The notes below the pieces were generated by a model, which made no database searches, was not told the origin of the DNA, and was given only the letters and a program-made list of their open reading frames with translations. DNA of 24,277 bases from a virus. The stretch's first letter is position 1, and the number at the start of each line of letters is the position of its first letter. The position numbers and the translations under genes are program-made. The stretch covers positions 1 through 24,277 of the IMG/VR virus record IMGVR_UViG_3300030107_004926; one strand, 5' to 3'. Shown piece after piece: positions 1 through 24,277 of this stretch.

Positions 1-1
1 C

Positions 2-703: not shown

Positions 704-706
704 ACA

Positions 707-3004: not shown

Positions 3005-3030
3005 ATAATATTTCCGCAGAAGGATTTGCG

Positions 3031-9000: not shown

Positions 9001-12000
9001 GAAGGCAAAGCTAGTAGAACAGCTTTGAAACAAGCAGATGAGTTTAGTGCCGCTACTCCTATTAAAAATGAAATTCTCAATGCCATTGATAGGGGCGAAA
9101 CCCAAGGCGTAGTTCGTCCACGAGTTGTGGGCAAACGTTTTGTTCATTCAGATCTTGGTCCTGCTCAGGCAAGAGTCCTTGCAGCTACAGAACACTTTTT
9201 CTCTAAAGGTGATGGGTCAGGGTACGGCGTTGTTGTTTCTAAAAACACAACTGAGCACGGGCTAGTCAGGCATGACGCAGTAGACGCTGAGATGATGATT
9301 ATTGATCTTACGCCACAGGCAGCTGAAGCTGCTAGTAACGCTGACAGTGTCCTAAACACTGCAATGATGGATGTGTCTTCCGTCAACGAAGACGGAGATC
9401 TGTACGACAACACATCCGAAAGCGACGATCAGTTCTCTGAGCCAGATCCAAATACACCAGAACACGCCATGGTGACAAGCCTGACTGACTATCTAGTTGG
9501 CAAACAGGACGAAATAGCTCTGAACATTGACCCTAATTCACCACTTGCACAATCACTGCAAATTGGCAATACGGTCAAGGATCTCAAGGGCACCAAGAAG
9601 TTTATGCACAACATCTTGTTCCCTGCGCTTGCATCTAGTAGTCCAATTGTCAGAACAACTGTTTCTAGAATGGCCTTCCTTGAAATGGAAGCCAGCAAGC
9701 GGGAGCAGATACAGCTTAGAGAAGATCAGGGATATTACGACACCTTGCCTCGCGCCTTCCGTAAGAACAAAGGCCAAGCGTTCTTTAACTTAATGGACAA
9801 GGTTAAGGTTGCCCCGAGTGAGATTGATACTCATCCAGAAACTAGAAACCTACCGCCTAAGGTCAAACGCGCACTAGCTCACTTCAAGGCTAGAGGCGAA
9901 GGTATGAGACTTGAGCTTGTTGCACAGAAGCGTAGTGCAATTGAAAACTCCACGCAGTACCTCAACATGGATCAAATTGTTGTTATTGCTAACGAGAACC
10001 TTCCTGAAGATGAGCACTGGAGCGTTGAAGAATTTAAGAACGGCAAAAGAAATGGCAGGAGGATTGTCAAGGCTGATGGCACTACCCTTACCAAAACAGA
10101 GGCTGCTACTGAAGTGGCAAAGCTGGCTGTGCCAAATGACTGGGGATATCAATATGAACACATTCATCACGCTTTCTTTGGTGTGTACAGGCTTGGCTGG
10201 ATTGACGAAGCAAAGTACAAAGAAGCCCGCGACAAGGGCATGACTGAGTGGCAAGCTCAGCGAGAGGCTCTTGTAACGATTGGTGATGCAAACAACTACT
10301 CAGATGCTGCAACAAAGTTGAGCCAACAGAGGAAATTGCTTGCAGATGAAAAAGCTGCAATGCGAAACGCAGACGGTGAGATGATCCTTGTAGCACTTCC
10401 AGACACGCAAATTCCTAGTGACGTTACACAAAGACTAAGCACAAAGCAGCACAGTGCGTTGCTGGCTCAGTTAGGCGAAGCAGCGGCATTGACTTCAAGT
10501 GAAATCTTTGACCTCACTAGGGGAATCGTAGGAACTAAGAAGTCTAAGAACACTTTCTACGCAGCAATGTTGGAAAGAACTGGAGCTGAAGGCTACAGCA
10601 CTGACTTTATGAGAGTCTGGGGTGTGCAAACTAGAGGGTTTAACAGGTACATACTTTCGAGGCAGCTTAGAGATACTGTTTACCCTGCTACAGAAAAAAT
10701 GCGTGCAAATGGTCTTCTGAAGTGGGCAAATCATTTTGAGGACCTTGTTGAGTACGTCATTAATCCTGCAAGCGCGGAAAGACTAGAAGGAACGGCTGAA
10801 CAGTTGCTTGATGGAATCTTGCACAAGATTCTTGGCGGCGACGGCGAAAAAGGAATACTGTTCGGCAAAACAGACATTGGTCACAGGCCGCTGCGCAGAG
10901 GTTTGCAAACAGTCCGAGCTATTATGTACTTTGCAACACTGAAATCAGTGAGGCAATATATAATCAACAGTATGCAGCCGTTGCAAACCGTTTACCCTCT
11001 TGTGGGCGAACTTGGAATGATGAGGGCAATACGCCTCTACAACACCAACAAAGGCAGGGCTATTTTGAGAAAGTATGGCCCTGTTGCTGATCGTTCACAA
11101 TACACAGACGCACCAGCAGGTGGCGGTTTGGTTGGCCCAAGAGCATTTAGGCGGATTACTAACTTGCTCAGACAACTTGTTCAATACTCGCCTATTGACT
11201 TTTCGTCTGAAAACCGAAACCAAAGATTTGCATTTTTGGCTTTGTACTTGCACGCTAAAGATATGGGCATGTCAGACGAAGAAGCTGTCGAGTTTGGATA
11301 TATCAGGGGAACTTTGCAAACCCAGTACCCGTTTACAAGAACGACGCAACCTCCGGTTATGAGAGGGCCGATTGCAGCAACAATCTTGCAGTACAAACGC
11401 TTTATGATTAATCAAGTGCAGTTGGCCGCGTCTTTCCTTGCTCGCGGGTCAGATAAAGGTGACTACGCGACTACTGGATATGGCGGATTTACTAGGTTTG
11501 CGGCAATGCAACTTCTTATTGGCGGCGTTCGAGGTGTAGTCCCAATTGCGTTGTTTAACTTGGGTAAAAACACCCTGTGTAAATTTATGCCAGAGTGGTG
11601 CGAAAAAGCTGGCGGATACCCAGAAGACGACGTAGAACAGCTTAGAAGATTTGTAAACGATGCTACCCAAAGTGACAAATTTGGAAACGCTATTGCTCAC
11701 GGTATATTTGCATCTATCTTTGAAATAGACATGAGTGGGTCCATATCTTTGTTTGGCAAGCCATACGGCAGATCTACAGCAGAACAACTTGGGTATATGT
11801 TCATGGGTCCTGCTGGCAACTCTATGCTTAGGGTAGGAACAGATCTCAGTGAAAAACAAACAACTGACAGAAGCACACTAGATGTTGTGGGTCAGTCGTT
11901 GCTAGATGGTGCCCCTGCTGTTTCTGCTATGGTTGACTTCCTTGATGCTTGTTACAACATGGAAATGTCTGGTAAGAAATATTACGACAACAGAGGAAGA

Positions 12001-12360
12001 TTTAAGTTTGAAGCTACTGTGTACCAGAGATACTTGAAGATGATGGGCTTCCGTACTATGGATGAAAGCGTTATTGCAGCTGAATGGCAGCACATGGATG
12101 TGGTAAACAGGACCTATGATTATTACATTGACAAAGCAGCAACACTGTACGCCTCTGGCAAAGATGAAGAGGCCGATGAGGTAGTAAACAAATACAACGC
12201 CATGTATGGTGACAGGATTCCTATCGAAGGCAGAAACATCAGAAACAGGGTCGAGCGAAAACTTAAAGACCGGATGCTGCCTGCGCAGGAAAGGCGAAGA
12301 GAGCAAATGTCTGACCCTGCTCAGGCTTATGTACAAGAACAGTATGGAGAAGTTGAATGA
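3031..12360 (+). CDS. Giant polyvalent-type internal virion protein with HExxH metallopeptidase motif, 3,109 aa
   Basis: The start is set by an AGAAGGA site at 3018-3024, 6 bases before the ATG. Residues 1-200 are charged and helical. Residues about 230-610 are helical with Gly/Ala-rich hydrophobic pieces (near 335-365, 418-435, 592-605) that could touch membrane. Residues 831-934 are an E/Q/P-rich linker. A zinc metallopeptidase motif HEFIH lies at 1055-1059; a Glu in KETPAVMANMIVDFI about 85 residues on could be the third ligand. Residues about 1741-1917 (LFVGELQFDY, PFGRPM, then LKQIIKDAADNGVTRIAIPHGE) are a divergent copy of a domain common in phage polyvalent proteins. The C-terminal quarter, with TILQYKRFMINQ at 2784-2795, resembles PLxRFG-type proteins. 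Such giants are packed in the capsid and injected with the DNA. I see no T7/N4-type RNA polymerase motifs. The individual activities are inferred; the polyvalent nature is fairly clear. Confidence 0.75.
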   Translation: MQEDFREQFRSDFVPSPEPTEPVEEFADLTDSGVPETQAIDSAAKQEQEEAKRLQEEQADQLDSMDPLKQRRAQERADDKKRADQLVDPDFQQNKREVLEIAQERVAQNHPNAKRGTPEYYALIKSYRNRYMERRGFDVVDPVAPPKKTALTKASKQFDAMQRSVDRMLKTPETRARELEEAQKKEAAKRLEERRFTEKLRNEGVTEIRDGVEYQVVMDAQGRRKLAGGGFKGFYQQLKSGTKDVLNHLASGEFRLAQSASVALMGDFVLGGHEAINDSLDPRTEQELNAIAEYRMRNIINEQDYKYKMYLKYPELQEFEPSYLQELGTAFKDGISAISTGGAGMSALVTQATVGVLDASGLKGGEILDQNLMIDMAIDLTYQQKFRAGRSRSKIDEMSLGGDIGIELTRELPSTMLDYFVAFGVGGKVVKGLSKEATKRAIVQQARKRAIGNALVDSTEVGGQQFIDSFQHYMRDPNIDPESGRNLAMYEAQFAILTTMVLDYFGGKVIFKGKGPKQESIQRDLEFSTKRVVGKVLKAGGKIGGAGAAEAVTEIAQEVAVDLGISAGRDDMGNSLLFKALEGDGEAWRQIAVIAGVSAILGGGTRGLSMTVEGGGPRNVGLRELGKLSEGIKKRRAEELQRSFAVASDAEDLLAEVTDEELAKVAMRGVTLGEDESFAPAREFSGTGKSGKEYENERLTPQIAKAALQQRLGYSTAEMDIEALLTMEPERVSQQRKLNPNDEEASRDMKYLEDARGSLSADDAFDSQGGENVALREFVLDNPELARQMASSSKPPSRRQMEIILGGQDRKSNNARHRTRFWAAVQQAVQTLPDPDQEQDSEQEAQNQQNVTVQQDPAGESVTPTTGDEVSENPDVEGVVSPEENTPAPTQPEQEEEQQELEVLPAEAVETAPTQQLEEDEGAIEPADEKPGLVKKAESAIAGVTARGMDEEAVKSGLERLVDDVNLDDLSQNTEEQLEQILTLVQLFSTLGQTGGIRRTTAEDGEVHSFAEERGVVVYLFDGPNTTRGVALHRSAIAFNSKLAASARVRATMFHEFIHIYQFENPGEIEALAAVVFGIAPEAVQAAINEYNKAFDDMNKRRVADGLPPLPMDLERMLKETPAVMANMIVDFIMADDRVLAEMLRAEPSKMAKFLEAVMRFFGVGPDKMTKEQKAQMEHLATLGKDEFTAEQMAELGLLYKNLFRTLRTQDGDRSIGTVTPALMDVSPSEASAMLAQATPLMTHMQRNIGADDKEKYSYQELQERFAKDPSLKLEAEFRGFDSWYEGHSEAYRADNPKSKKKAPITRDELDRFLSETEPQVDVRVSGDGNDQDVRMVAFALGNNASNLLAVEDEVMGLGFEVAPEERMNQLLSGRYVARKLDTEEPLVHDLENYLPEKYFNLHTRTVITDADLTFTPSMTSAAIRGTRHIEVWGQLEEGGPYVPVLDQTGNHLKSVDETVLIGPGQIDKDDIEQFLYDNPDARLDRGTEEYITALDYAVAPEEQPAGVVRIRFNQKNGADLFRRNQPQDAYRDREYYKQLNKAVFESEAHSPYASSEINVKPAPKPTIRDPYLEEVQTPAQAFEMGIEPENGAYGVSVEGQSDTVDFSAFSDEGTGSYFATYMLFGQFKNEFASARGTDDAGQEIHNPTKYSNWWPSGRFTSGFDDLSSNPRSYREVQVVTNVSTTSESRSYFGAHFAPNEDFGYNLLGNPSFRHELGSGNQNYIGHYRRDIRSDGGVPTLFVGELQFDYQGDRNKYGVEGESDFVDDSSVRIEVKPRRVVLTNIRSGAKIDFSTQHLIEIIDDLEKASNTELSQRSIAQVNESNVEEDVESRVLKVLSAAREVPRNTTDATSITMQEFLARPLGPKDPVGDLPFGRPMKNAKQMSNRGYLNLILKQIIKDAADNGVTRIAIPHGEFINQYWSNQHGNSYAWTFDPESELLNVVQTMGEDDTDTKASKRKGQDRLEGMIMVQGVQKKSDQDESQIRVPVVEGKASRTALKQADEFSAATPIKNEILNAIDRGETQGVVRPRVVGKRFVHSDLGPAQARVLAATEHFFSKGDGSGYGVVVSKNTTEHGLVRHDAVDAEMMIIDLTPQAAEAASNADSVLNTAMMDVSSVNEDGDLYDNTSESDDQFSEPDPNTPEHAMVTSLTDYLVGKQDEIALNIDPNSPLAQSLQIGNTVKDLKGTKKFMHNILFPALASSSPIVRTTVSRMAFLEMEASKREQIQLREDQGYYDTLPRAFRKNKGQAFFNLMDKVKVAPSEIDTHPETRNLPPKVKRALAHFKARGEGMRLELVAQKRSAIENSTQYLNMDQIVVIANENLPEDEHWSVEEFKNGKRNGRRIVKADGTTLTKTEAATEVAKLAVPNDWGYQYEHIHHAFFGVYRLGWIDEAKYKEARDKGMTEWQAQREALVTIGDANNYSDAATKLSQQRKLLADEKAAMRNADGEMILVALPDTQIPSDVTQRLSTKQHSALLAQLGEAAALTSSEIFDLTRGIVGTKKSKNTFYAAMLERTGAEGYSTDFMRVWGVQTRGFNRYILSRQLRDTVYPATEKMRANGLLKWANHFEDLVEYVINPASAERLEGTAEQLLDGILHKILGGDGEKGILFGKTDIGHRPLRRGLQTVRAIMYFATLKSVRQYIINSMQPLQTVYPLVGELGMMRAIRLYNTNKGRAILRKYGPVADRSQYTDAPAGGGLVGPRAFRRITNLLRQLVQYSPIDFSSENRNQRFAFLALYLHAKDMGMSDEEAVEFGYIRGTLQTQYPFTRTTQPPVMRGPIAATILQYKRFMINQVQLAASFLARGSDKGDYATTGYGGFTRFAAMQLLIGGVRGVVPIALFNLGKNTLCKFMPEWCEKAGGYPEDDVEQLRRFVNDATQSDKFGNAIAHGIFASIFEIDMSGSISLFGKPYGRSTAEQLGYMFMGPAGNSMLRVGTDLSEKQTTDRSTLDVVGQSLLDGAPAVSAMVDFLDACYNMEMSGKKYYDNRGRFKFEATVYQRYLKMMGFRTMDESVIAAEWQHMDVVNRTYDYYIDKAATLYASGKDEEADEVVNKYNAMYGDRIPIEGRNIRNRVERKLKDRMLPAQERRREQMSDPAQAYVQEQYGEVE

Positions 12361-13484: not shown

Positions 13485-14540
13485 TTAAGTAACGTCCGCA
13501 CCACTTGAGAGCAGGAAGTTAGAACGACGGTTGTAACACAGCAGGTTCATGGTCATGTCAACATGAGTCAGGAACACGGTGTGCTGGTTAGATGCCTTTG
13601 CAGGACCTTCTTCACGAAGGTACTCGCCTGCAAGGAATGCGGGGCGAAGTGACTGCCAGTTGACTCCGTAAACGGGGTTGCCGGTAGCGTTTTCGAGCTG
13701 CGGGACCCACTGCACAGGAGTGCGGCGGAACATAACCTGACCATCCTTGGAAGCGAGATCGTTGCCAAGGTTTTCGTTCTGAGCTTCAAGAACTTCTTCC
13801 AGAGGGCCAATAACACTGTAGTTCGTGTAGTAGCCGTAGTTAGAAGGACCTTCGTACTGTGCGTAGGGCGAAGGAGCCTTGAAGTTAGTGAACGTCGAAG
13901 CCTTACGCCATGCACGGATAAGGTCAACGCTGGTTACGTTGGTGTAGGAAGCAGACCAGTTCTGCCAGTTACCATAGGTAGCTGATGCAAGACCACCTGC
14001 ACCAGTGCCTTCAGCAGTGTAAGTCGGGTCACCGCCAAGGAAACCACCAGCAGTCGTGGGTGCGCCACGGGTAATCCAGTAAGGAATACCGTAAAGACGA
14101 TCAGTCTGGCTGGCTGTGGGCTGTGACCAGAATCGTTCTTCCATGTGAGTTGCAAGCGAACTCATTGCGTCATGGCGACGAATCTTGACAAGGTCCACAA
14201 TCTGTGCCGGAGTGCGATTCATAGCGATTTCACGACGCTCAAGAGCGTAGTTAGTCGTCATATGCCGCCAAGGCGCAGTAGCCGTCTGCATAACGTCGGT
14301 AACGTTCACCGAATCGACTGCGTAGAGACCAGTGTCCTTTGCAGCTCCGCTAGTTGCGGTCTGCACGTTCCACTGAAGCCCCTGTCCTGACTGATACGAA
14401 ACCTTCTCCTTCTGGAGAATCATTGGGAGAGCGACATGTTCCTGCAAACTGTAGGAAATGTCGGTCCACTTCATACGGCCCAGATCCTTCTGGGTCGTTG
14501 TAATCAGATCTGCAATATCTGATGCTTGGAGCGAAGCCAT
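13485..14540 (-). CDS. Putative major capsid protein, 351 aa
   Basis: The position decides this call: the gene follows the acidic scaffold gene, has the usual size of an HK97-fold capsid subunit and has a good site (AGAGGT, 6 bases before the ATG). The N-terminus (MASLQASDIADLITTTQKDL) looks like the helical arm of such subunits. The middle has WNVQTATSGAAKDTGLY and MTTNYALERREIAMNRTPAQIVDLV, a pattern of capsid spine and E-loop regions. TTSVD-like and aromatic-rich strands with PYWITRG follow, and the C-terminal third ends in VDMTMNLLCYNRRSNFLL. There is no N-terminal protease or delta domain, so a separate scaffold is needed, which agrees with the gene before it. I recognise no closer relative. 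Confidence 0.75.
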   Translation of the reverse strand: MASLQASDIADLITTTQKDLGRMKWTDISYSLQEHVALPMILQKEKVSYQSGQGLQWNVQTATSGAAKDTGLYAVDSVNVTDVMQTATAPWRHMTTNYALERREIAMNRTPAQIVDLVKIRRHDAMSSLATHMEERFWSQPTASQTDRLYGIPYWITRGAPTTAGGFLGGDPTYTAEGTGAGGLASATYGNWQNWSASYTNVTSVDLIRAWRKASTFTNFKAPSPYAQYEGPSNYGYYTNYSVIGPLEEVLEAQNENLGNDLASKDGQVMFRRTPVQWVPQLENATGNPVYGVNWQSLRPAFLAGEYLREEGPAKASNQHTVFLTHVDMTMNLLCYNRRSNFLLSSGADVT

Positions 14541-14551
14541 TTTAATACCTC

Positions 14552-15544
14552 TTATTCAAATGATTCCGAGTCGAGTGCTACGAGTCCTCTGTCACGCATG
14601 ATCTGCGCAACACTAGCTACGGCTTTGTCGCGTCCCTGCTTGGGGACACCACGGTTGTTTGTAGCTCTAGCGATGAATTGCTTCTCTCGCTTTTTGACCT
14701 TCTTTGCAAAACGATCTCGTTCAATTTCTTGGATACGCATACCGAAGACGCTTCGGAATGCCTTTGTGAACAACTCAGTGTCTGTAGGGACAGGCTTTTT
14801 AGCAGCTGCATAACCAGCGCGAAGAACGCTGACTTCATCAAGAAGTCTAGATCTGTTGCGCGAGAAATCAGATGTCGGATCAAGATCACTACTAGGGCCT
14901 GAACCAAGGACTTCTGGGTATTTACCAGCAATCTCAGTTACGCCCTGTTCTGACTGTGCGCTAAGTGCAACACCGCCAACCTTAGAAAGCTCTCCCCGCA
15001 TTCGTTCAAGTTCTGAATTCAACGCCTTAATCGCCCGTGCTGCCACAGGGTCAAAATGATCGTCGGGTTTCATCCCTTCAATTTCTGCAAGTGCCTGCCT
15101 TGACTCGTCAATCTTTTTGAGAGCCGCATCGCTTTGCTGGATTTCTGCTGATTCGGAAGTCTCTTCGACAGCTTTCCTCTGCAAAGCGGCAATAATTGTA
15201 CCTAGAGCTGAGTCAGATCCAATGGATTTGATTTCATCATCAGAAAGACCTTGGGCTTTAGCGAGAGCAACAAGTTCAGTCTGCAGACCTTCTTGAACTT
15301 CTTCCTCTTCCTCGTACTCTTCATCATCATTAATAACCTCGGGTTGATCCGGGTCGTAATATTCGTATTCATCTTCTTCGTCTACTTCTTCTTCTTCGCA
15401 ATCCTCACACTCTTCTTCTTCGCCCTCTTCAGCGAAGCCATAGAGTTCTTGCTCATCAGGCTCTTCAAAATCCATGCCTGCAAAAGCACCTTTCGGTTCT
15501 TCGGTTTGCTCAGTCGTTTCTGTAGGTTCTTTTTGTTCATCCAT
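14552..15544 (-). CDS. Putative scaffolding protein, acidic, 330 aa
   Basis: Three in-frame ATGs lie at 15577, 15550 and 15544. Only the last (MDEQKEPTE) is well placed, with GGAGG 8 bases upstream, so it is chosen; the gene then overlaps the upstream gene by 8 bases. Residues 38-86 are almost entirely Asp, Glu and Tyr with two Cys (ECEDC). Residues about 85-190 are predicted helical. The C-terminal half is basic, ending with many Lys/Arg (FAKKVKKREKQFIARA). An acidic, helical protein with a basic C-terminal end that can hold the capsid subunit, encoded just before the capsid gene, is the classic picture of a phage scaffold protein. It would be absent from the mature virion. No protease motif is seen. 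The function is inferred from position and composition. Confidence 0.7.
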   Translation of the reverse strand: MDEQKEPTETTEQTEEPKGAFAGMDFEEPDEQELYGFAEEGEEEECEDCEEEEVDEEDEYEYYDPDQPEVINDDEEYEEEEEVQEGLQTELVALAKAQGLSDDEIKSIGSDSALGTIIAALQRKAVEETSESAEIQQSDAALKKIDESRQALAEIEGMKPDDHFDPVAARAIKALNSELERMRGELSKVGGVALSAQSEQGVTEIAGKYPEVLGSGPSSDLDPTSDFSRNRSRLLDEVSVLRAGYAAAKKPVPTDTELFTKAFRSVFGMRIQEIERDRFAKKVKKREKQFIARATNNRGVPKQGRDKAVASVAQIMRDRGLVALDSESFE

Positions 15545-15911
15545 CGCCATAGCCTCCACTCTTGTCGTGCATTCCATATGCTTTTAGGTAATTTGCTCTA
15601 TGTGAGCGTGATTTAAAGATCGCTTGCCCGGTTTCCGTGTCAAAGTCAGTAGGAACGCCTTTTTTCATGCTGTCACTACGGAACTCATTCACTTGACCGG
15701 GATGTACGCCTGCTGCATCGCTTTTCATAGGCCAGACTGCACACCTCGCAGGGCTATTACCACAATGCTCAGACGCAAGGTCTCTTTCCCACTTTACACC
15801 TTCTAGCACAATGGACATATCGGCCTCACATCGCCGTTCCATCTCGCTAATAGTCATAAAAATGGAGGTTGTCTCACCAGTTGTGGTATTTTTGTAATCG
15901 TAATATGGCAT
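15537..15911 (-). CDS. Small FmdB-like head-cluster protein with lost zinc ligands, 124 aa
   Basis: It starts MPYYDYKN, like the FmdB-type zinc ribbon (MPxYDYxCxxCG) that many phages keep near the portal or capsid genes. Here the first pair of cysteines is replaced (NTTTGE). Cysteines remain at residue 28 (RRCEAD), then in EHCGNSPARCAV. The C-terminus reads FKSRSHRANYLKAYGMHDKSGGYGDG, a motif I associate with these phage proteins. The ATG shares one base with the portal stop (TAATG), so translation is coupled. A weak GGAG lies 11 bases upstream. The role in the head is unknown. The FmdB relation is a family-level guess from the N-terminus and length. Confidence 0.5.
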   Translation of the reverse strand: MPYYDYKNTTTGETTSIFMTISEMERRCEADMSIVLEGVKWERDLASEHCGNSPARCAVWPMKSDAAGVHPGQVNEFRSDSMKKGVPTDFDTETGQAIFKSRSHRANYLKAYGMHDKSGGYGDG

Positions 15912-17710
15912 TACTGCATTTGCTCCGCTTCAGACTGCTGGTTCCCCGCACCCATCATCATTCGGGTCATAGCATCGTCTCTAGCTGTGCCGCTCATACC
16001 AGCAGCAACATTCTCTCTAATGTATTTACGGGTGGTTTCTACGGGCTTGACAGTGCCTGCTTGCGTTGATTTTGCCATTTCCATAGCTGAAGCAATGGAC
16101 TCTTGTTCGGCAGGTGTTAGGTCTCTAAGCACATCCTGCAGCTCAGGAGTGTTGCTGTACTTGGAAACGATCTCGATAAACTCCTTCATGTCGAAAGTCA
16201 TGCCCATTTGCTGCAAATTCTGCGCCATTGGCAAGATGAAGGTAGAAACGATCTGAGACACTGTTTGCACACGTTCAGCTGGGCTTCTGCTCTGCATTGA
16301 GTATGGCGCAATGTCGATATTGTAATCAACAAAGTCGATTGTACGCATACTAGGGCTGAAATCAGCCTTGACGGTGATATTGGTGTCTGGGATCTCTTTA
16401 AAGATTCTTGGATTTGCAACAGGGTCATGGTACAGATATTTTGCAAGAGAAGTTACCACCCCTTGCACGGCACTGCTCACAGCTGCCTGCATGTCTGCAA
16501 TCTTGGTGCTGGCTGATTGAGAAATGATCTGCTCCTGACCAACAGTATTGGCCGCCTTGCCCAATCCACCCATGGTGTCCAAGTTGCCGCCAAGGTAGGA
16601 GAACATCTGCCTAAGCTGAACCATGAAGGCCAGCGAGGTTTGATCTACGCCGCCGTAGGTGACCTCCTTGGTGGCTTCAGGGCGGTCTGAGCGGATGATG
16701 TCCCCATCGTCCGCAGAACCGATTCTACGGCCATCCTCTTCAGCCCCTGCTCCGACCACTGTCAGGGTCTTCTGACGCTCAGCCTGCCTTCCTAGCTTCC
16801 TGAAGACCCTGTTAGACAGATCATGCAAATCAATGAGCTGCATTGCCGGTGCTGTCGGGAAAATATTGCCCGGAACGTCATTAAATCCCAACCTGTGGTA
16901 AGGGCCATTATCTGGTCCTGACCATTCAATAATGCGTCTCTCTTCTGAGTCTTTCACGCCGCCATCAGCGTCTGCAGGCATTGTTACCAGCAGGTTTTCG
17001 TATGGAAGCCAGATGTCCCAAAGCTCAATCATGGGCATATATGACTCATCGCCATACCCTGTTCCCTGCGTTGTCAGGGTTTGCACCCTGTCATCTCCGC
17101 CCTCGTTAGTCATAGGGGTGTATTCTGTCGGCTTCAAGTTAGAATTTTTGCCAAACATCTTCAGATCCATGACTGCCTCGTAAGGCAGGCAATACCTGTT
17201 CCCGCAAAATTGGATCTGATCCCATCTTTTAGCACCAACATCGAACACGAAGTCATCAAGATCGACGTTGTCTACAAAAGGCTGGCCCGTGTCGTGGGTG
17301 AAACCCATGATTTCTGAGCTTGCTTCTGGTGAAATGCCCACTTTGACAATGCCCATTGCAAACATTGCATCAATAACCCAGCGTTGCAGGGTTTCTTCAA
17401 AGCCAATTTCTTTCAGAAGCAGGTTCAAGGAGAGCTGAAAGTTCTCAGCTACTGCTTTCGCCTCGGGGTTCTGACTGGTCACAGTAACTTGTGGCGATCT
17501 TGCAGCCACTTGCCTCTTGTAAATGGAGAGGGCCATTTCCATGAGGTTGATGGGAACCCGGTCCATAGGGCCGTATTCTCCATAGTTACCGCCAACATAC
17601 TGCTTAATAGCTTCCAACCTCTTCTCTCTGAAGGGCTGCATCTTACGGCGCGAGTATTCGATTGATCGGGCAAGGCGGCTAACCTTGTCGCCATCCATTT
17701 TATATGCCAT
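15911..17710 (-). CDS. Portal protein, 599 aa
   Basis: The protein is of portal size, with the usual order of an N-terminal helical region with a conserved basic start (ARSIEYSRRKMQPFREKRLE) and then a GNYGEYGPMDRVPINLM segment. RQVAARSPQVTV and a long helical core with AMFAMGIVKVGISPE follow. The C-terminal part is helical with Gln/Met-rich ends. Portals form the ring at one capsid vertex that the terminase docks on and DNA enters and leaves by. It lies between TerL (3 bases before) and the FmdB-like gene. The start is ATG with GGTGG 6 bases upstream, overlapping the TerL end region. An alternative ATG at 17698 is less likely. Portal identity is based on context and general pattern and is quite safe; the exact family is not assigned. 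Confidence 0.85.
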   Translation of the reverse strand: MAYKMDGDKVSRLARSIEYSRRKMQPFREKRLEAIKQYVGGNYGEYGPMDRVPINLMEMALSIYKRQVAARSPQVTVTSQNPEAKAVAENFQLSLNLLLKEIGFEETLQRWVIDAMFAMGIVKVGISPEASSEIMGFTHDTGQPFVDNVDLDDFVFDVGAKRWDQIQFCGNRYCLPYEAVMDLKMFGKNSNLKPTEYTPMTNEGGDDRVQTLTTQGTGYGDESYMPMIELWDIWLPYENLLVTMPADADGGVKDSEERRIIEWSGPDNGPYHRLGFNDVPGNIFPTAPAMQLIDLHDLSNRVFRKLGRQAERQKTLTVVGAGAEEDGRRIGSADDGDIIRSDRPEATKEVTYGGVDQTSLAFMVQLRQMFSYLGGNLDTMGGLGKAANTVGQEQIISQSASTKIADMQAAVSSAVQGVVTSLAKYLYHDPVANPRIFKEIPDTNITVKADFSPSMRTIDFVDYNIDIAPYSMQSRSPAERVQTVSQIVSTFILPMAQNLQQMGMTFDMKEFIEIVSKYSNTPELQDVLRDLTPAEQESIASAMEMAKSTQAGTVKPVETTRKYIRENVAAGMSGTARDDAMTRMMMGAGNQQSEAEQMQ

Positions 17711-17713
17711 TTA

Positions 17714-19456
17714 TTACCACCATTGTTTGTCTTGCTTGCGTTTCTGGGCTATGTGCCTGCGCCAGAGCATTGACCCTTCTGACACCTCTACCATATCTAT
17801 CGGCCTTGTATTGTTCTTTCTCCGGATGATACCACGACAACACAATGCGTCAGCTGTGGGCCTGTCACCGTGGTTTTCCCTAGCTCCGCTAGGGTCGAAG
17901 TTACGAACAGACCTTGAGTGTGTCACCCACCCTGTAGATGAGAACACAATCTCTTTTGCTTCTTTGATCGACGGAAGACTGTAGTTGATGAATTCCTTTG
18001 ATTGCAAAGCGCGTCGATATTCACCGTACAGTGCACGCTTGGCATCCTTGGTAGGCCACCAGCCCGGTGTTTGGGTCGCAGTCTTCGTCACCTTGTTTTC
18101 GTTTTCCCGGTAATACACATGACGATAGCCGTTTTCCAAAACGACATCGCCAAAGTTCCTGCCGGGTCCGGGTGCTTCCCAGATCAAGAAAGCCTCCCTG
18201 TTGTTTGCGTCACAGAAGTACCTGCCAAGTGCAACCGCATACTTGCCTAGTTCTTCTGGCCTGACGTTGGGTGACACAAACTCTGCAACCTTCTCCCCTG
18301 TGCTTGCATCTGCAACACTCATTGCAGAGTTGCTTGCACCAGTACCAGTTGCAATGTCAACACCGATGACATACATCCGATCATTTGCAACGTGACCAGT
18401 AAAATCTGGCTCCCTCCACAAATGCAAACGGCCTTTAGGCGTAGCTACAAAACCCATAGGTGCAAGAGAGTCGGGTTCAAACTCCAACTCTCCTACAGCC
18501 ATGGGTGGTTTGCAAACTGTGTTTTCGATCTGGGTCAGCACTTCGTTGTCAAAGAATTGGTAATCAGATCCACTGAAGTCAATGTCTAGCTCTTGCGCAA
18601 TTTCTTGTGGGTGCGCACATCGTTTGACTTCGTCGTCGTACCAAGGACTTCTTTCTTTCCCGCCCTCATCAACGTACAGATTCTTCGCTTTGTCCGGATG
18701 ACGAGTCCAATGCAAAACAAGCTGCTTCGTATCGTTTTTATGCGCCATGTCGAAGAATGCGTTTCCGCTACCCGCAGGCGTTGAGTTAAAAATTCTTGAC
18801 TTAGTAGCATCACGAGTCGAAGCCAGCGCACGATATCCGGCATCAACGTCAAAAGCAGCAAACTCATCAAGACCAATTGCAGTTCTTCTATCTCCTCGGG
18901 CAACGTCGCCAGTAGTAGATTCTCCGTCGATGGTAGATCCATTGGACTCATTTGTAAGCCTTAGCTTTGTACGAGTGGTCTTGGGCTTCAACCAGCCGGG
19001 TAAGTGTTCGTGGATGAAATCAATCTTCCAAAAAAGGCTCTTGGGGTTGCCCGGTTTGTCCACATAATCTTCATTTCGGCTAACCAACAAGAAAGATTGA
19101 CCAGAATGAAAATGCCATCGCCATTCAAACACCGTCAGAAGCATCCACGACGCACCCATGTCGCGGCTCTTACGGATCACCAAATCATGGTTGCCAATCG
19201 CATCGTTCATATCAACCAATGATTCATCTTGGAATCCATAGGTTATGAACGGCAACTTGCCCGATCCTATACGCGGATCATAGGTCCAACAAAACATGTT
19301 GACGTAAAACAACAAGTCCCTAGAGCACATCATCCAAAACTCTTCAGCGTGCTTCTTGTCTTGTTTTGCAAGTGACAAAGCCTTGGCCCTGTACCGAAGG
19401 TTGCCCTTCATGTCCTTTGGGACACGCCTGTAATATTCGTCGGTTGTCTCAATCAC
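17714..19456 (-). CDS. terL: Terminase large subunit, 580 aa
   Basis: This ATP-driven motor cuts concatemeric DNA and packs it into the procapsid through the portal. The ATPase half has a variant Walker A (RKSRDMGASW, residues 95-104), Walker B with catalytic Glu (IGLDEF, D197/E198) and a coupling motif STPAGSGN (225-232). The nuclease half has the RNase H-like fold acids: D367 in GVDIATGTG, E427 in IWEAPGPG, and a C-terminal acid in HGDRPTADAL (D531/D536). Length is normal. The start is GTG, overlapping the upstream stop as GTGA, with a weak GGGG about 11 bases before it. It sits between a sigma-like gene and the portal gene. No missing motif was seen. This is the safest call in the window. 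Confidence 0.95.
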   Translation of the reverse strand: MIETTDEYYRRVPKDMKGNLRYRAKALSLAKQDKKHAEEFWMMCSRDLLFYVNMFCWTYDPRIGSGKLPFITYGFQDESLVDMNDAIGNHDLVIRKSRDMGASWMLLTVFEWRWHFHSGQSFLLVSRNEDYVDKPGNPKSLFWKIDFIHEHLPGWLKPKTTRTKLRLTNESNGSTIDGESTTGDVARGDRRTAIGLDEFAAFDVDAGYRALASTRDATKSRIFNSTPAGSGNAFFDMAHKNDTKQLVLHWTRHPDKAKNLYVDEGGKERSPWYDDEVKRCAHPQEIAQELDIDFSGSDYQFFDNEVLTQIENTVCKPPMAVGELEFEPDSLAPMGFVATPKGRLHLWREPDFTGHVANDRMYVIGVDIATGTGASNSAMSVADASTGEKVAEFVSPNVRPEELGKYAVALGRYFCDANNREAFLIWEAPGPGRNFGDVVLENGYRHVYYRENENKVTKTATQTPGWWPTKDAKRALYGEYRRALQSKEFINYSLPSIKEAKEIVFSSTGWVTHSRSVRNFDPSGARENHGDRPTADALCCRGIIRRKNNTRPIDMVEVSEGSMLWRRHIAQKRKQDKQWW

Positions 19457-20016: not shown

Positions 20017-20299
20017 ACGTCGTCCGACGAATCCCCAACAGCTCAGCAATATCTGTATTGCTCATGCTGTCTATTAGTACCTCGTGCGCTATCACGGCCA
20101 TTCTCTGCCTAGCCGTCATCGCACGGCGGGTTCGTGCGGTACTAAACTCTTCCTCAGACAAATCCAACTTGTGGAGCAATTCGCCCTTAATCGCCTCTAC
20201 CATCAACTTCGCTTGGCGAGGACCCCTTTTGGTCTCTGCTGCGCTCATCTTTAACTTTATCGGCCCGGACCGGAACATCCTTGTGCTGCTCTGAATCAC
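19967..20299 (-). CDS. Small HTH protein, possible small terminase subunit or regulator, 110 aa
   Basis: A basic N-terminus is followed by a helical middle and a clear HTH near residues 80-103 (SNTDIAELLGIRRTTYVQLR). The start is taken as GTG at 20299 because GGAG lies 7 bases upstream. Later ATGs at 20278, 20248 and 20203 have no site but would shorten the 113-base overlap with the 229-residue gene (to 20187). The 3' end also overlaps the next gene in another frame. A small DNA-binding protein two genes before TerL fits a small terminase subunit, which recognises the packaging site; a transcription regulator is equally possible. I do not recognise a family. Confidence 0.5.
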   Translation of the reverse strand: MIQSSTRMFRSGPIKLKMSAAETKRGPRQAKLMVEAIKGELLHKLDLSEEEFSTARTRRAMTARQRMAVIAHEVLIDSMSNTDIAELLGIRRTTYVQLRQNFKQGKVFSP

Positions 20300-20876
20300 C
20301 TTGCGTCTCCGTTTCTAGAAGGTCAATCAAACCCATCAATTGCCTCCCGTCATCACGATAACGCGCATCTGCCTCCAAGCTAGTCCTACTTGGCAACAAT
20401 TTTGTATAAATCTGGCCCCAAAACTGTGCTTCATTGGTATTAGACCTTCTCGCCCAGCACAACATGCCCCAAGCCTCCGGACTCGGCGCATCCTCCGGAA
20501 CCGCATCCTCCAACATCACATTTGCAGCAACCCACTCCACCGTCTCAGGTGTCGAACAACTCCTGCCAAGGAAAGATGACTTGCCAACCTTGTCGCCGTC
20601 CATGTCGGACACCGATGCCTGAACCACCGGTGCCGACACTGGACGACTCTCACCCACCTCGACACTCTTCACCTGATCCTCTTGTGGACCCTCCTGAAGC
20701 TCCCGCTCAAGCAATGTCGCTGCTTGACCCCAAGCGTCACCGGCATCAACGCCTTGCTCCTTCAACGACTCGCGGATCTCTATGAAACGGCTCCAATGGC
20801 CGTTCTCCATAAGCCAGTTGCGAAGCTGGCTCTTTGAGACGCGCTGTTGATAAAGATGGGGGGGAACGTATGCCAC
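20187..20876 (-). CDS. Unknown protein, first gene of the head operon, 229 aa
   Basis: I do not recognise it. The start is GTG at 20876, set by GGAGGT ending 7 bases upstream (ACCTCC on the + strand at 20884-20889). The N-terminal 50 residues are helical and basic-aromatic (SKSQLRNWLMENGHWSRFIE), perhaps a DNA-binding or dimer helix pair. Residues 75-110 look like a flexible linker. Residues 110-165 hold a helical part with PEAWGMLCWARRSNTNEAQF, YTKLLPSRTSLE, a pattern seen in proteins next to terminase genes. The C-terminus is charged and disordered. It leads the operon before the HTH, sigma-like and TerL genes, so a role in packaging start or late control is possible but not shown. Confidence 0.55.
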   Translation of the reverse strand: MAYVPPHLYQQRVSKSQLRNWLMENGHWSRFIEIRESLKEQGVDAGDAWGQAATLLERELQEGPQEDQVKSVEVGESRPVSAPVVQASVSDMDGDKVGKSSFLGRSCSTPETVEWVAANVMLEDAVPEDAPSPEAWGMLCWARRSNTNEAQFWGQIYTKLLPSRTSLEADARYRDDGRQLMGLIDLLETETQGDSEQHKDVPVRADKVKDERSRDQKGSSPSEVDGRGD

Positions 20877-20908
20877 AAGTTGAACCTCCGCTTAGAGTGT
20901 CGAGCTAT

Positions 20909-20914
20909 ATTATA
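20909..20914 (-). promoter_or_regulatory. Possible -10 box of the head operon promoter
   Basis: The - strand reads TATAAT, a perfect sigma-70 -10 hexamer, about 33 bases before the GTG of the 229-residue gene, leaving a short leader with the GGAGGT site. No recognisable -35 box lies 15-19 bases further upstream (the sequence there is GC-rich). It could be an activator-dependent or phage-specific promoter, or chance. Confidence 0.35.
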
Positions 20915-20948
20915 CGAAAATTCGACGCGGGCGGGGCGTGGCAAAAAA

Positions 20949-21086
20949 TTTCAACGAAGTTGAAAAACGGTTTGCAAACCTCGCATCAGCACACACGCGC
21001 ACGGCAGCGGAGCTGCCAGCACCTTGCAAACTTGCAAACCGGAAACACCCCAAAGGGGTGACGGATCGCATTCCGGAATTCCGGAA
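20949..21086. repeat. Palindrome and triloop hairpin cluster
   Basis: It contains TTTCAAC-GAA-GTTGAAA (20949-20965), the 12-base perfect palindrome GGTTTGCAAACC (20969-20980) and GGCAGC-GGA-GCTGCC (21003-21017). Two TTGCAAA copies lie near 21024-21038. CACCCC-AAA-GGGGTG follows (21046-21060), then the 16-base palindrome TTCCGGAATTCCGGAA (21071-21086). The two long palindromes have no loop and could be sites for dimeric DNA-binding proteins. The hairpin at 21003 has the core AGCGGAGCT, the same core I remember from coliphage N4 virion RNA polymerase promoter hairpins; no such polymerase was recognised here. Confidence 0.75.
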
Positions 21087-21184
21087 AGACCCAGCTTCGC
21101 TGGTCGCACGCGCACGCACACGTTCCAGCTCCGCTGGAAAGGCGACTACCCTCGGCCCTTGCAAACTCTGGCATCACATACGCT

Positions 21185-21307
21185 GTCCTTCGGACCATGC
21201 ACACAGTCCTTCGGACCACATGCGCTGCCCTTCGGGCCGTACCCACGAGGCTTCGCCTTGACACATGAGGCTTCGCCTTGACGCACTTGACGCACGGGGC
21301 TTCGCCC
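21185..21307. repeat. Phased array of six 11-base minihairpins with TTC loops
   Basis: The units are GTCC-TTC-GGAC at 21185 and 21206, GCCC-TTC-GGGC at 21227, AGGC-TTC-GCCT at 21248 and 21268, and GGGC-TTC-GCCC at 21297. Start-to-start distances are 21, 21, 21, 20 and 29. The arms change while pairing and the TTC loop stay, which points to selection on structure rather than sequence. On the opposite strand each loop is C(GAA)G, the most stable DNA triloop class known. Spacers are 9-10 bases (one of 18), rich in alternating CA/TG. A 21-bp period puts all units on one face of the DNA helix. Confidence 0.85.
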
Positions 21308-21380
21308 TGACCAGTGACGCAGCACACAGCGCAGCATGATGCCTCCCCATACACACATGAGGCAGCAAATTTGCACTATT

Positions 21381-21395
21381 TACCCCTACGGGGTA
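21381..21395. repeat. Triloop hairpin upstream of the first right-arm gene
   Basis: TACCCC-TAC-GGGGTA has 6 perfect pairs, extendable by a T.G wobble and a T-A pair to 8. It lies in an AT-rich stretch about 115 bases before the ATG at 21512, between two weak promoter-like hexamers. It is the last strong hairpin of the intergenic region. Confidence 0.7.
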
Positions 21396-21511
21396 GAAAT
21401 TTAGTTGGCAGATTTTCCTTGCATCGGTGGTCAGAATGCCGAAAGTGAATGGGTCAACTCATCGCCGAATCGGTCGGCATCTCAACCCTTGCAACTCCAA
21501 AGGAGCCACCC

Positions 21512-21817
21512 ATGAACAACTTCGTTGTCACAACCACCGTCCAAATGGCAGAGCCATTCACCAAGACTCAGGAATTCTACTGCCCCTTTGGGGCTGACGC
21601 AGCCTTCTGGAAGGCTGTCGATTCCAGCAAAGTGCTGGAAGAGTGGGGCTACCCAATGTCTGTGACATTGACCAGCAAATTGCAACTCAGCAATCCTTCG
21701 GATTGGGACTGGGATGTCGAGTCGCCCTGTGGCTGTGATGCTTGCAGAGAGGCTGAAGCCTACGACGAACTTCCCCAGCTTTCAGCTGGTTTGTCCCACT
21801 CCAACTCCTGCTGCTAA
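21512..21817 (+). CDS. Small unknown protein, first gene of the right-arm operon, 101 aa
   Basis: The frame is open from an ATG at 21449, but the ATG at 21512 has AAAGGAG (21499-21505) 6 bases upstream and is chosen. I do not recognise the protein. The first 60 residues (MNNFVVTTTVQMAEPFTKTQ onward) alternate like beta strands. Near the C-terminus is an acidic-aromatic patch (DWDWDVE) and a Cys group CGCDAC, with CC as the last residues, which might bind metal. Its DNA holds at least five triloop hairpins with arms of 6 or more. The stop codon sits in the loop of TGCTGC-TAAA-GCAGCA (21809-21824). It leads the operon with the AAA+ ATPase and may act with it. Confidence 0.6.
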   Translation: MNNFVVTTTVQMAEPFTKTQEFYCPFGADAAFWKAVDSSKVLEEWGYPMSVTLTSKLQLSNPSDWDWDVESPCGCDACREAEAYDELPQLSAGLSHSNSCC

Positions 21818-21851
21818 AGCAGCACCTCAACTCCTGCTGTCTTCGACAGCA
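21809..21851 (+). repeat. Two tandem hairpins at the gene end and in the intergenic gap
   Basis: The first (21809-21824) has arms TGCTGC/GCAGCA around TAAA, which contains the stop codon of the 101-residue gene. The second (21835-21851) is TGCTGTC-TTC-GACAGCA, 7 bp with a TTC loop. No T-run follows either, so they are not typical terminators; they may protect the upstream mRNA end or reduce read-through. Confidence 0.65.
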
Positions 21852-21856
21852 AAACT

Positions 21857-21871
21857 TACCTTGAAAGGGTA
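21857..21871 (+). promoter_or_regulatory. Ribosome-binding site of the ATPase gene inside a GAA-loop hairpin
   Basis: TACCTT and AGGGTA pair (one T.G wobble) around GAA. The site GAAAGGG (21863-21869) is made of the loop and the 3' arm. The hairpin ends 5 bases before the ATG at 21877. The same design occurs at 23128-23142 before the next gene, so access by the ribosome may be controlled in the same way for both. Confidence 0.55.
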
Positions 21872-21876
21872 TGCAA

Positions 21877-23118
21877 ATGTCCATCAGCTACGCTGAACAA
21901 TCCACAGGGAACCTTCGTTCCCTTCTCCGTTCGCTCCGTAAGACCAGCGGAGGACTTTCGTCCTCTCTGTCTGCAGCTGAGGCCAATGGCCTCAAGAAAG
22001 AACACTGCATTGCAGTGTTGCAGTACATCGACGATTGCAATCGTCACGGAAGACCGTTCCGGTCTTCGGATCTCCGCCACTACGCTGGACTCTCCGAGTC
22101 CAAGACTGGCCGAATCCGAATGGTCAAGAAGGCGAAGCCTTCGACCCCCAAGGTGACGAAGTCACCCCGTCCTGCTACCAACGGAGTTGAGTGTTCAATC
22201 ACCAGCCTCGTCGATAGTGTCCTTGACACTAGACTGGCAGATGTCGAAGCGAAGCTTGCCGAAGCTGTTGCAAGCTCTGGTGGTGCTTCCAGCACCTTTG
22301 TGTTCCCTGAAAGGGAACCAGTTGTCCTTGACAAGCTGACCCACGAGGTCCTTCCGGACCTTGTTGACTGCTGCAATGACGGCTTCAACAACTTGTTGTT
22401 GGTAGGACCAGCAGGAACCGGCAAGACGACCCTCGCAGAGGACCTTGCAAAGGCTCTGGACCTACCCTTCGGGTCGGTCTCCTGCACTGCTGGACTCTCC
22501 GAGTCGGTGTTCACTGGCCGAATCTTGCCTACGGCAAGTGGCGAATGGACCTATCGGTCCACCGAATTCGTCAAGCTGTTCACCGAAGGTGGTGTCTTCC
22601 TTGCCGACGAATGGGATGCAGCTGATCCGAACCTGTTGACTTTGGTCAACTCAGCTCTTGCAAACGGCAGAATGTCCAACGCCGTCTCTGGAGAGACGAT
22701 GATCCGTCACAAAGACTTCGTCTTTGTTGCTGCAGGAAATACTTGGGGCTACGGTGCCGACCGGACCTACGTTGGGAGGAACCCAATCGACGGTGCCACC
22801 ATGGACCGCACCGTAGGTGCCAAGTTCCATGTTGACTACTCCGTAGTCATCGAGGACAGCATCTTCAGAGCTTGCAAGAGTGACAAAGTCACTGGTGACG
22901 AGCTGAAGCAGCTGATCCACAGTCTTCGACGGTGGATCAAGACCGAACAGGCTTCCTACATCGTAGGAACTAGGGCAGTCGTTGCAGCTGTCCGGCTTGC
23001 AAATTCGCCGAAGCCGAAGAGCCTCGCCGACATCCTTGCAAGGCTCACAATCGACTGGTCTCCCAGTCATCAGACAGCTGCACAGCGTACTGCTATGGCA
23101 GCACACAGCACCAAATAA
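21877..23118 (+). CDS. MoxR/CobS-like AAA+ ATPase, 413 aa
   Basis: Two ATGs lie at 21871 and 21877; GAAAGGG is 7 bases before the second and only 1 before the first, so 21877 is chosen. Residues 1-95 are helical and basic, perhaps a DNA- or partner-binding part. The AAA+ core has Walker A GPAGTGKTT (177-185), Walker B VFLADE (240-245), sensor 1 FVAAGN (N288) and a likely arginine finger in ATMDRT (R311). This is the dynein/MoxR-type branch, whose members work with a VWA-domain partner to remodel proteins or insert metals. Here the next gene encodes a VWA-like protein, as in other phage pairs. The substrate is unknown. The gene DNA is packed with triloop hairpins, 14 of them with arms of 6 or more. 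The family call is safe; the function is not known. Confidence 0.88.
   Translation: MSISYAEQSTGNLRSLLRSLRKTSGGLSSSLSAAEANGLKKEHCIAVLQYIDDCNRHGRPFRSSDLRHYAGLSESKTGRIRMVKKAKPSTPKVTKSPRPATNGVECSITSLVDSVLDTRLADVEAKLAEAVASSGGASSTFVFPEREPVVLDKLTHEVLPDLVDCCNDGFNNLLLVGPAGTGKTTLAEDLAKALDLPFGSVSCTAGLSESVFTGRILPTASGEWTYRSTEFVKLFTEGGVFLADEWDAADPNLLTLVNSALANGRMSNAVSGETMIRHKDFVFVAAGNTWGYGADRTYVGRNPIDGATMDRTVGAKFHVDYSVVIEDSIFRACKSDKVTGDELKQLIHSLRRWIKTEQASYIVGTRAVVAAVRLANSPKPKSLADILARLTIDWSPSHQTAAQRTAMAAHSTK
22913..22939. repeat. Long compound hairpin inside the ATPase gene
   Basis: TGATCCAC (22913-22920) pairs with GTGGATCA (22932-22939). After one A.G mismatch, GTC-TTC-GAC continues the stem (22922-22930) with a TTC loop. 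In total 11 pairs, the same triloop design as its neighbours. It lies in the codons for the C-terminal helical part (LIHSLRRWIK). Confidence 0.8.
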
Positions 23119-23127
23119 TCACCCACG

Positions 23128-23142
23128 ATTCCTGAAAGGAAT
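23128..23142 (+). promoter_or_regulatory. Ribosome-binding site of the VWA-like gene inside a GAA-loop hairpin
   Basis: ATTCCT and AGGAAT pair perfectly around GAA in the 27-base gap between the two genes. The Shine-Dalgarno AAAGGA (23135-23140) is formed by loop and 3' arm, and the ATG follows 5 bases after it. It closely copies the design at 21857-21871. Confidence 0.65.
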
Positions 23143-23145
23143 ACC

Positions 23146-24030
23146 ATGCGTTATTTGCAGAACACCAAGACACGAATCGGCGTTCGATTCGACTCCGTCG
23201 AAGACATGATGCAAGCGACCAGCTTCGCTGAGTCTCATGCCAACCCAACCGCTACGGCGGAACAGCGTGAGGTCAACATGCAGGATCTGAAAGATCGCAC
23301 CGTTGAGTCAAGCTGGACCGAAGGTGTCACTGATGCCGACTCGCTTGCAAACTTGTTTGCAAATCCACCGGAGTGGTTGATCAAAGCTGGCACGAAGTGC
23401 CTTGACACGATCAATGCCGCAGTCGGTTCCCGACTCGATGCCCCCATCAAACGTCGAAGACGTATCGGCGTGGAGGATGGTGACTCCGTCAACATCGACC
23501 GATTCCTCGTTCGGTCTTCCGAACCATGGGAGCGCATGGATTCCTACAGGAATACCACGCCGATTGTGACCATCACCGTCGATCTGGTCACTGCCGGAGG
23601 CCAAAGACGCGATGAACTCCTTTGGAGGGGTGCCGCTGCTGTCGGTGCTGCTATGCAAATCGAGCGACTTGGCGGTCAGTGCGAGATCATCGGCATCAAC
23701 TCTGTTGCAAAGGTGGACGGCGAACGCCGTCTGATTCAGGAGATTATGATCAAGCCAGTGCACGAGAAAGCTACGCTTTCTTCGACGCTGATTTGCACGG
23801 GGCATGTCGGTTTCTACCGATATGCCGTCCTGAATTCGTTCTTCGCTTGCAGCGTTGGCAAGGTCAGACCCGGCATGGGGCAGTGCATGGACACCCCCAT
23901 CAGCGTACTCAAAGACGTTGGCTGTGACATCCACATCGGCAGGAATTGCACTAGTGCAAGCAAGGCAATTGCAGAAGCAAATGCCGCCATTGAATCATTC
24001 GACAAGAAAGGACAAGAACAGCATGTCTGA
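23146..24030 (+). CDS. VWA-like partner protein of the AAA+ ATPase, 294 aa
   Basis: Residues about 110-250 show a VWA-type Rossmann order. A basic run and RFLVRSSEPWERM are followed by a first strand TPIVTITVDLVTAGG (138-152), a helix with RDELLWRGAAAVGAAMQIE and a strand CEIIGINS. Further on are IMIKP and a helix around FYRYAVLNSFFA. The metal site DxSxS that normally follows the first strand is not present (VDLVTAG), so metal-ion binding is probably lost. The pattern matches my memory of a phage family annotated as DUF7192; the number needs checking. It follows the ATPase by 27 bases with AAAGGA 5 bases before its ATG, and such ATPase plus VWA pairs act together. The job of this pair in the phage is unknown. 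Confidence 0.65.
   Translation: MRYLQNTKTRIGVRFDSVEDMMQATSFAESHANPTATAEQREVNMQDLKDRTVESSWTEGVTDADSLANLFANPPEWLIKAGTKCLDTINAAVGSRLDAPIKRRRRIGVEDGDSVNIDRFLVRSSEPWERMDSYRNTTPIVTITVDLVTAGGQRRDELLWRGAAAVGAAMQIERLGGQCEIIGINSVAKVDGERRLIQEIMIKPVHEKATLSSTLICTGHVGFYRYAVLNSFFACSVGKVRPGMGQCMDTPISVLKDVGCDIHIGRNCTSASKAIAEANAAIESFDKKGQEQHV
23801..23826. repeat. 11-bp hairpin inside the VWA-like gene
   Basis: GGCATGTCGGT (23801-23811) pairs with ACCGATATGCC (23816-23826) around TTCT, with one G.T wobble at 23806/23821 and no other mismatch. It is the joint-longest stem in the window, with the one at 24043. The loop has four bases, so it belongs to the same population of tight hairpins but is not a triloop. 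Confidence 0.8.
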
Positions 24031-24277
24031 TGCAAACAACCCGCAGGGGGTGGGAATCCACCCCCTGCCATTTGAGATCGGTGTCGGCGTAGACACCCAC
24101 GAACTGCTTGCAGTTCAGCTGCAAACAGCAGCGTATGAGAGTAACGCGGAAGCAGCTACGCTGCTCGTGTACCAACTCTTGCGCACTGTCAATGCACTGG
24201 AACCACGCAGCGATTGGATGCACATCTTGAACGATGCAGCTATGCTGCTGGCACATGATGAAGGAATGCTCGATTCA
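24023..24277 (+). CDS. Unknown protein, 3' partial (85 codons visible)
   Basis: The ATG at 24023 overlaps the previous stop by 8 bases and has AAAGGA (24007-24012) 10 bases upstream. The frame stays open to the window end. The visible part (MSDANNPQGVGIHPLPFEIG, then VDTHELLAVQLQTAAYESNA, LLVYQLLRTVNALEPRSDWM) is helical after residue 25 and has no known motif. It continues the ATPase operon. The DNA holds an 11-bp hairpin at its start, triloops at 24151-24165 and 24236-24248, and GGTGTC/GACACC at 24080-24097. Confidence 0.6.
   Translation, partial: MSDANNPQGVGIHPLPFEIGVGVDTHELLAVQLQTAAYESNAEAATLLVYQLLRTVNALEPRSDWMHILNDAAMLLAHDEGMLDS
24043..24068. repeat. GC-rich 11-bp hairpin at the start of the last gene
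   Basis: GCAGGGGGTGG (24043-24053) pairs perfectly with CCACCCCCTGC (24058-24068) around GAAT. It covers codons 7-16 of the partial gene. A stem this strong so near a start codon would normally slow early translation, unless it has a control role. Confidence 0.85.

Follow-up and report, generated by a model that had tools for sequence, protein, structure and literature searches.

A dense field of small perfect hairpins along one operon of a metagenomic phage

Hairpins of the early promoters of phage N4 need a C-G closing pair and a GNA loop for extrusion driven by supercoiling (PMC4496689). The palindromes of Nematomorpha mitochondria have arms that evolve in concert and no known function, and template switching has been proposed for them (PMC6649704). 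In yeast, transcription-associated quasi-palindrome mutations over a spacer of 3 base pairs (bp) gave perfect repeats of 5–8 bp (PMC3820800), and template switching is able both to perfect stems and to invert loops (PMC8794818). The present analysis concerns the IMG/VR virus record IMGVR_UViG_3300030107_004926, whose 24,277 bases constitute the window, and in particular a field of mini-hairpins with three-base loops (triloops) that occupies positions 20940–24277, here called the island. The hairpins occur far beyond chance, are symmetric between strands and perfect, belong to a single size class, are built mostly at synonymous positions, are anchored to an edge and are kept in diverged relatives.

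All perfect-arm hairpins were scanned and compared with 200 dinucleotide shuffles. Within the island, loops of exactly three bases with arms of at least 6 bp occur 28 times against 0.80 expected (shuffle maximum, 4); with arms of at least 5 bp there are 41 against 3.0 (maximum, 7), that is, about 12 per kilobase (kb). An earlier examination of the letters alone (the sequence-only reading) had counted 30 such triloops across genes and spacers from 20940 onward, placed the random expectation below one and seen no comparable density to the left. The scan bears out these statements, the remainder of the window (1–20939) being without excess (arms of at least 6 bp, 7 versus 4.95; at least 5 bp, 13 versus 18.5). 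That reading had also pointed to four-base loops and shorter arms. Four-base loops are indeed in excess at arms of at least 6 bp, more weakly (8 versus 0.70), as are two-base loops (9 versus 0.77), and loops of five or more bases are not; among triloops the excess is limited to arms of 4–8 bp, arms of 3 bp or less lying at chance level and arms of 9 bp or more not being seen in the island.

The same excess stands far above a control that preserves the encoded proteins, as had been proposed with the sequence-only reading. The three island genes carry 20 triloops with arms of at least 6 bp, against 1.0 (maximum, 4) in 100 synonymous-codon shuffles, which keep both protein and codon usage. Because these shuffles abolish the excess, the signal sits in synonymous codon choice. 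The genes, all on the plus strand, comprise an open reading frame of 122 amino acids without an assigned family (21449–21817; 8 triloops with arms of at least 5 bp versus 0.9), a CobS/MoxR-like AAA+ ATPase (AAA_5, phrog_249; 21871–23118; 17 versus 1.8, and 12 versus 0.43 at arms of at least 6 bp) and a DUF7192 protein (23146–24030; 6 versus 1.4), in which the density is falling. In 14 of the 17 CobS triloops of the window, one complete codon forms the loop, so that third positions can pair with first positions. The gene for the terminase large subunit (TerL; 17714–19456, minus strand), the portal gene and a gene for a product of 3109 amino acids show no triloop excess over synonymous shuffles.

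A relative taken from a portal-based scan, G009 (IMGVR_UViG_3300034190_001954, 44,659 bp), encodes a CobS protein 57% identical to that of the window and has the same island gene order and hairpin field, with the same decay over 4–5 kb from a sharp edge that adjoins a conserved TATATAAT-like motif. Its CobS gene holds 12 triloops versus 1.4 in synonymous shuffles and its TerL gene none; the hairpin excess thus passes the codon-preserving control in two lineages, which supports a reading in terms of selection. Two further sequences (L054 and L069) are near-identical to G009, a hairpin-rich leader also occurs in L029 and L002, and L003 has a shorter stretch. No excess was found about 3 kb from the edge in L072, a downstream contig from the metagenome of L029. 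CobS homologues in other phages have neither hairpin field nor excess, the TerL relatives L004 and L006 are without the field, and no CobS relative was found in bacterial genomes.

The field has a fixed beginning and a gradual end. At its left lies a conserved edge (20906–20941, plus strand) composed of a TATATTATAC box (20906–20915) and a GGGGCGTGG block (20933–20941), present in all five lineages aligned. The conserved TATATAAT-like block, the gene order and the gene content suggest that the edge is a rightward promoter region and that the operon is probably early; a scan of the edge with the sigma-70 consensus found no hexamer pair and called no promoter. A non-coding leader with hairpins follows (20942–21448), and the place of its first hairpin, TTTCAAC-gaa-GTTGAAA (20949–20965), is kept in the five lineages with its arms replaced (TGCAAC/GTTGCA, GTAAAGCT/AGCTTTAC and GTAAAGTCT/AGACTTTAC). 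Rightward, the field can be followed in the contig IMGVR_UViG_3300030060_003331, which overlaps the right end of the window with four differences over about 2.98 kb after the first bases of the contig. Along this contig, the 5–10 triloops per 500 bp dwindle until, at a distance of about 5 kb from the left edge (window-equivalent, about 26.2 kb), none are left. The field is bounded and does not extend over the remainder of the genome, a correction to the sequence-only reading. The realised share of synonymously possible 6-bp sites in successive genes is 0.28, 0.25, 0.14, 0.09, 0, 0.17, 0 and 0, compared with 0–0.02 in TerL, the portal gene and the gene for a 229-amino-acid protein on the hairpin-free side of the edge (20187–20876, minus strand), which is terminase-small-subunit-like by position only.

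The individual hairpins are uniform in build. Perfect 6-bp stems number 35 versus 1.2 in the window with its extension and 28 versus 0.8 in G009; stems containing a single mismatch, whatever its type, are near chance, with little excess. In the dense part there is one hairpin per 45–50 bp or so (48–50 bp for loops of 2–4 bases), and overlaps are rarer than under random placement (2 versus 11.6; 5 versus 13.9). Of 108 island hairpins, 82 are closed by a C-G pair and 69 have a GNA loop or the complementary TNC; 54 combine the two features, as opposed to 2 of 114 chance hairpins elsewhere (a background of hairpins outside islands, with that of G009 left out).

These properties tentatively favour the view that selection maintains a field of DNA hairpins capable of extrusion in a rightward, probably early, operon, with a function that would be exerted by the DNA itself. 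Put more fully, and with slightly greater caution, the locus may hold a structural DNA code, that is, dozens of mini-hairpins extrudable by supercoiling, anchored to an early promoter, fading over 4–5 kb and written through synonymous codons, with a function in cis (supercoil handling, genome entry, replication or protein recruitment). The hairpins could be extruded by negative supercoiling behind RNA polymerase, or by exposure of single strands during genome entry, replication or recombination, and selection would then maintain how densely they are set, as a property acting in cis: they might absorb supercoils, for instance, or be recognised by a phage or host protein specific for structure. 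The sequence-only reading had likewise considered extruded hairpins bound by a phage protein; its structural part is upheld by strand-symmetric folding, C-GNA-G loops and the lack of wobble pairs, and no binding protein was identified. Selection accounts for the size class, the loop chemistry, the slow arms, the spacing and the confinement to one operon and one clade. Slow arms come from an alignment-dependent comparison of five leader sequences only, in which arms diverge more slowly than flanking sequence (odds ratio 0.57, p 0.002), loops change more (odds ratio 2.4, p 0.0004) and pairing survives in 10 of 17 pairs with both bases altered, compared with 19 of 74 in slid controls (p 0.02); such slow arms, fast loops and partial compensation, small as the numbers are, would be marks of maintained structure.

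Besides the narrow basis of the leader comparison, several observations weigh against a selected field. Within genes, the window and G009 have most of their hairpins at different positions, and slow arms and compensatory pairs are seen in the leader only, not in the genes between these two. Equal arms carry flipped gta/tac loops in two instances, one inserted base has a mirror counterpart in the opposite arm, and perfect arms with few one-mismatch intermediates fit template switching equally well. Under selection, the turnover in genes means that density and not site is kept there, and exact sites would matter in the leader alone. On the side of selection, arm codons are as conserved as other codons, and the hypothesis that hairpins are sited at poorly conserved residues was rejected.

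The main rival, somewhat unlikely as a full account, is mutational: frequent quasi-palindrome template switching in DNA synthesised just beyond a promoter, with a strand doubling back across a three-base loop to serve as its own template, would perfect near-palindromes, purifying selection on the proteins would spare mainly synonymous products, and the hairpins would be functionless. The sequence-only reading had listed such a process, and the data are compatible with it. It accounts for the perfect arms with few intermediates, the turnover of sites in genes, the loop flips (which the GNA/TNC preference alone could also yield) and the mirrored insertion; the sharp edge and subsequent decay of the field agree with it, and the yeast mutations and the capacity for loop inversion cited above provide precedents (PMC3820800; PMC8794818). 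Neutral arms, however, would be expected to diverge about as much as their flanks, yet they diverge less in the leader, and arms in this non-coding segment are no longer than coding ones. Differences between arms are spread evenly, without asymmetry of source and target (mean difference 1.24 versus 1.34 in the null, in a comparison that is saturated), the close-strain differences in the island, few in number, all fall outside arms, and the structural operons, which are probably also highly transcribed, have no hairpins. A local reverse transcriptase was rejected as a cause, as no RVT_1 match occurs in the two contigs or in G009 (controls for this search worked). Selection and mutation do not exclude each other, and probably both contribute: the perfect arms available to selection may well be produced by template switching.

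It is improbable that the hairpins belong to RNA, as an early transcript folded into many small protective or regulatory structures, the form in which the sequence-only reading had invoked nuclease-resistant mRNA. A field that begins just beyond a promoter-like box and fades downstream is what such a transcript could produce, but folding is as extreme on the antisense strand: relative to synonymous shuffles, the CobS gene of the window has z-scores of -9.4 (antisense) and -8.5 (coding), whereas the folding of TerL is biased to the coding strand (-3.9 versus -1.5). Pairs lost by one change in a relative have become G.T and A.C equally often on the coding strand (11 of each in the leader, 25 of each in genes), GNA loops, of a class stable in DNA, are present on either strand, and there is no Rfam match. 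With folding symmetric between strands, no excess of wobble pairs and GNA loops in both orientations, the hairpins look to be features of the DNA.

An array of N4-type promoters for a virion RNA polymerase is very improbable. The anatomy is the same, and when the first 15 kb of N4 are scanned identically, three hairpins of the C-TNC-G type appear (at 90, 557 and 4546). In N4, a T-rich run and then GG come after the hairpin, whereas the sequences downstream of the C-TNC-G hairpins of the island have nothing in common. No match to the phage RNA polymerase family PF00940 was obtained in the two contigs or G009, in a search whose control matched nowhere either, and the 3109-amino-acid protein is without a match to an RNA polymerase family. 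A composition, repeat-family or assembly artefact can be dismissed: the island is richer in G + C (about 55% versus 48%) and a few leader units are tandem, but dinucleotide and synonymous shuffles remove the signal, the arms are mostly unrelated to one another in sequence, contigs with other identifiers carry the field, reading frames are intact and CobS homologues of other phages lack it, and a repeat family in particular was rejected since the tandem units are few and restricted to the leader.

These units are three tandem copies of 21 bp (21180–21242), each a triloop with 4-bp arms (GTCC-ttc-GGAC twice, then GCCC-ttc-GGGC); in the third copy one pair has changed with compensation. Genes and spacer over 20960–23720 repeatedly contain the words CTTGCAAAC and TTGCAAA, and GCTTGCA occurs 12 times there, whereas the rest of the genome would predict 2.8. 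The contig that extends the field also overlaps the left end of the window, at 93.5% identity; the overlaps at both ends suggest a circular map of about 46 kb, the two records being different strains. The identity of the overlaps is unequal, being 93.5% across the structural genes at 1–4586 and broken by only four differences across the island at 21298–24277, and this suggests mosaic strains. Elsewhere in the window, the open reading frame of 3109 amino acids (3031–12360) has no Pfam or PHROG match and contains a HEFIH stretch that by eye resembles the zinc-peptidase motif HExxH; its product may be a giant virion protein of polyvalent type. For the major capsid and portal proteins (13485–17710) there was no tblastn match among 50,697 deposited phage records, so that the clade is apparently known from metagenomes only. 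A further relative with 63% TerL identity (L020–L022; contig IMGVR_UViG_3300030107_005854) is without triloops and has, at about 8–11 kb, a stretch rich in G + C (0.60–0.65 versus about 0.5) directly upstream of its terminase genes.

If the field is selected, a DNA-level code would be laid over a protein code across kilobases and would point to a new way of handling phage early DNA; if it is mutational, it would be a natural promoter-anchored record of template switching, by which an otherwise rare mutation mechanism becomes measurable. On either reading the prediction is testable by recoding and structure probing.

None of the open-access papers searched describes a hairpin field of this sort in a phage (most subscription papers and all bioRxiv preprints lie outside this set), and nothing in them contradicts the sequence-only reading, which knew of no phage system of this kind. 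The island hairpins are like the N4 early promoters (PMC4496689) in having a perfect stem (5–7 bp in N4), a three-base GNA loop, a C-G closing pair and, putatively in the island, a location in an early phage region and extrusion by supercoiling. N4, however, has three such sites, each with a T-run and GG after the hairpin, whereas the island has dozens without this sequence, some of them running through genes, and no RNA polymerase gene was found in the search described above, whose control likewise gave no match. With the mitochondria of Nematomorpha (PMC6649704) it shares perfect inverted repeats within conserved coding sequence, many at lineage-specific positions, but there the arms average 43 bp and the distances between them 37 bp, as against 4–8 bp over three bases, placed in a gradient at one end of an operon. 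Quasi-palindrome mutation (PMC3820800; PMC8794818) has been described as sporadic or as hotspot mutation and is not known to fill 4–5 kb or to persist across divergent lineages, as the island does. The N4 promoter hairpins are thus nearest in anatomy and the Nematomorpha coding palindromes nearest in phenomenon, and neither is an edge-anchored field of triloops; single hairpins resemble the known ones of N4, and what would be new is a field of them in a phage, anchored to a putative promoter.

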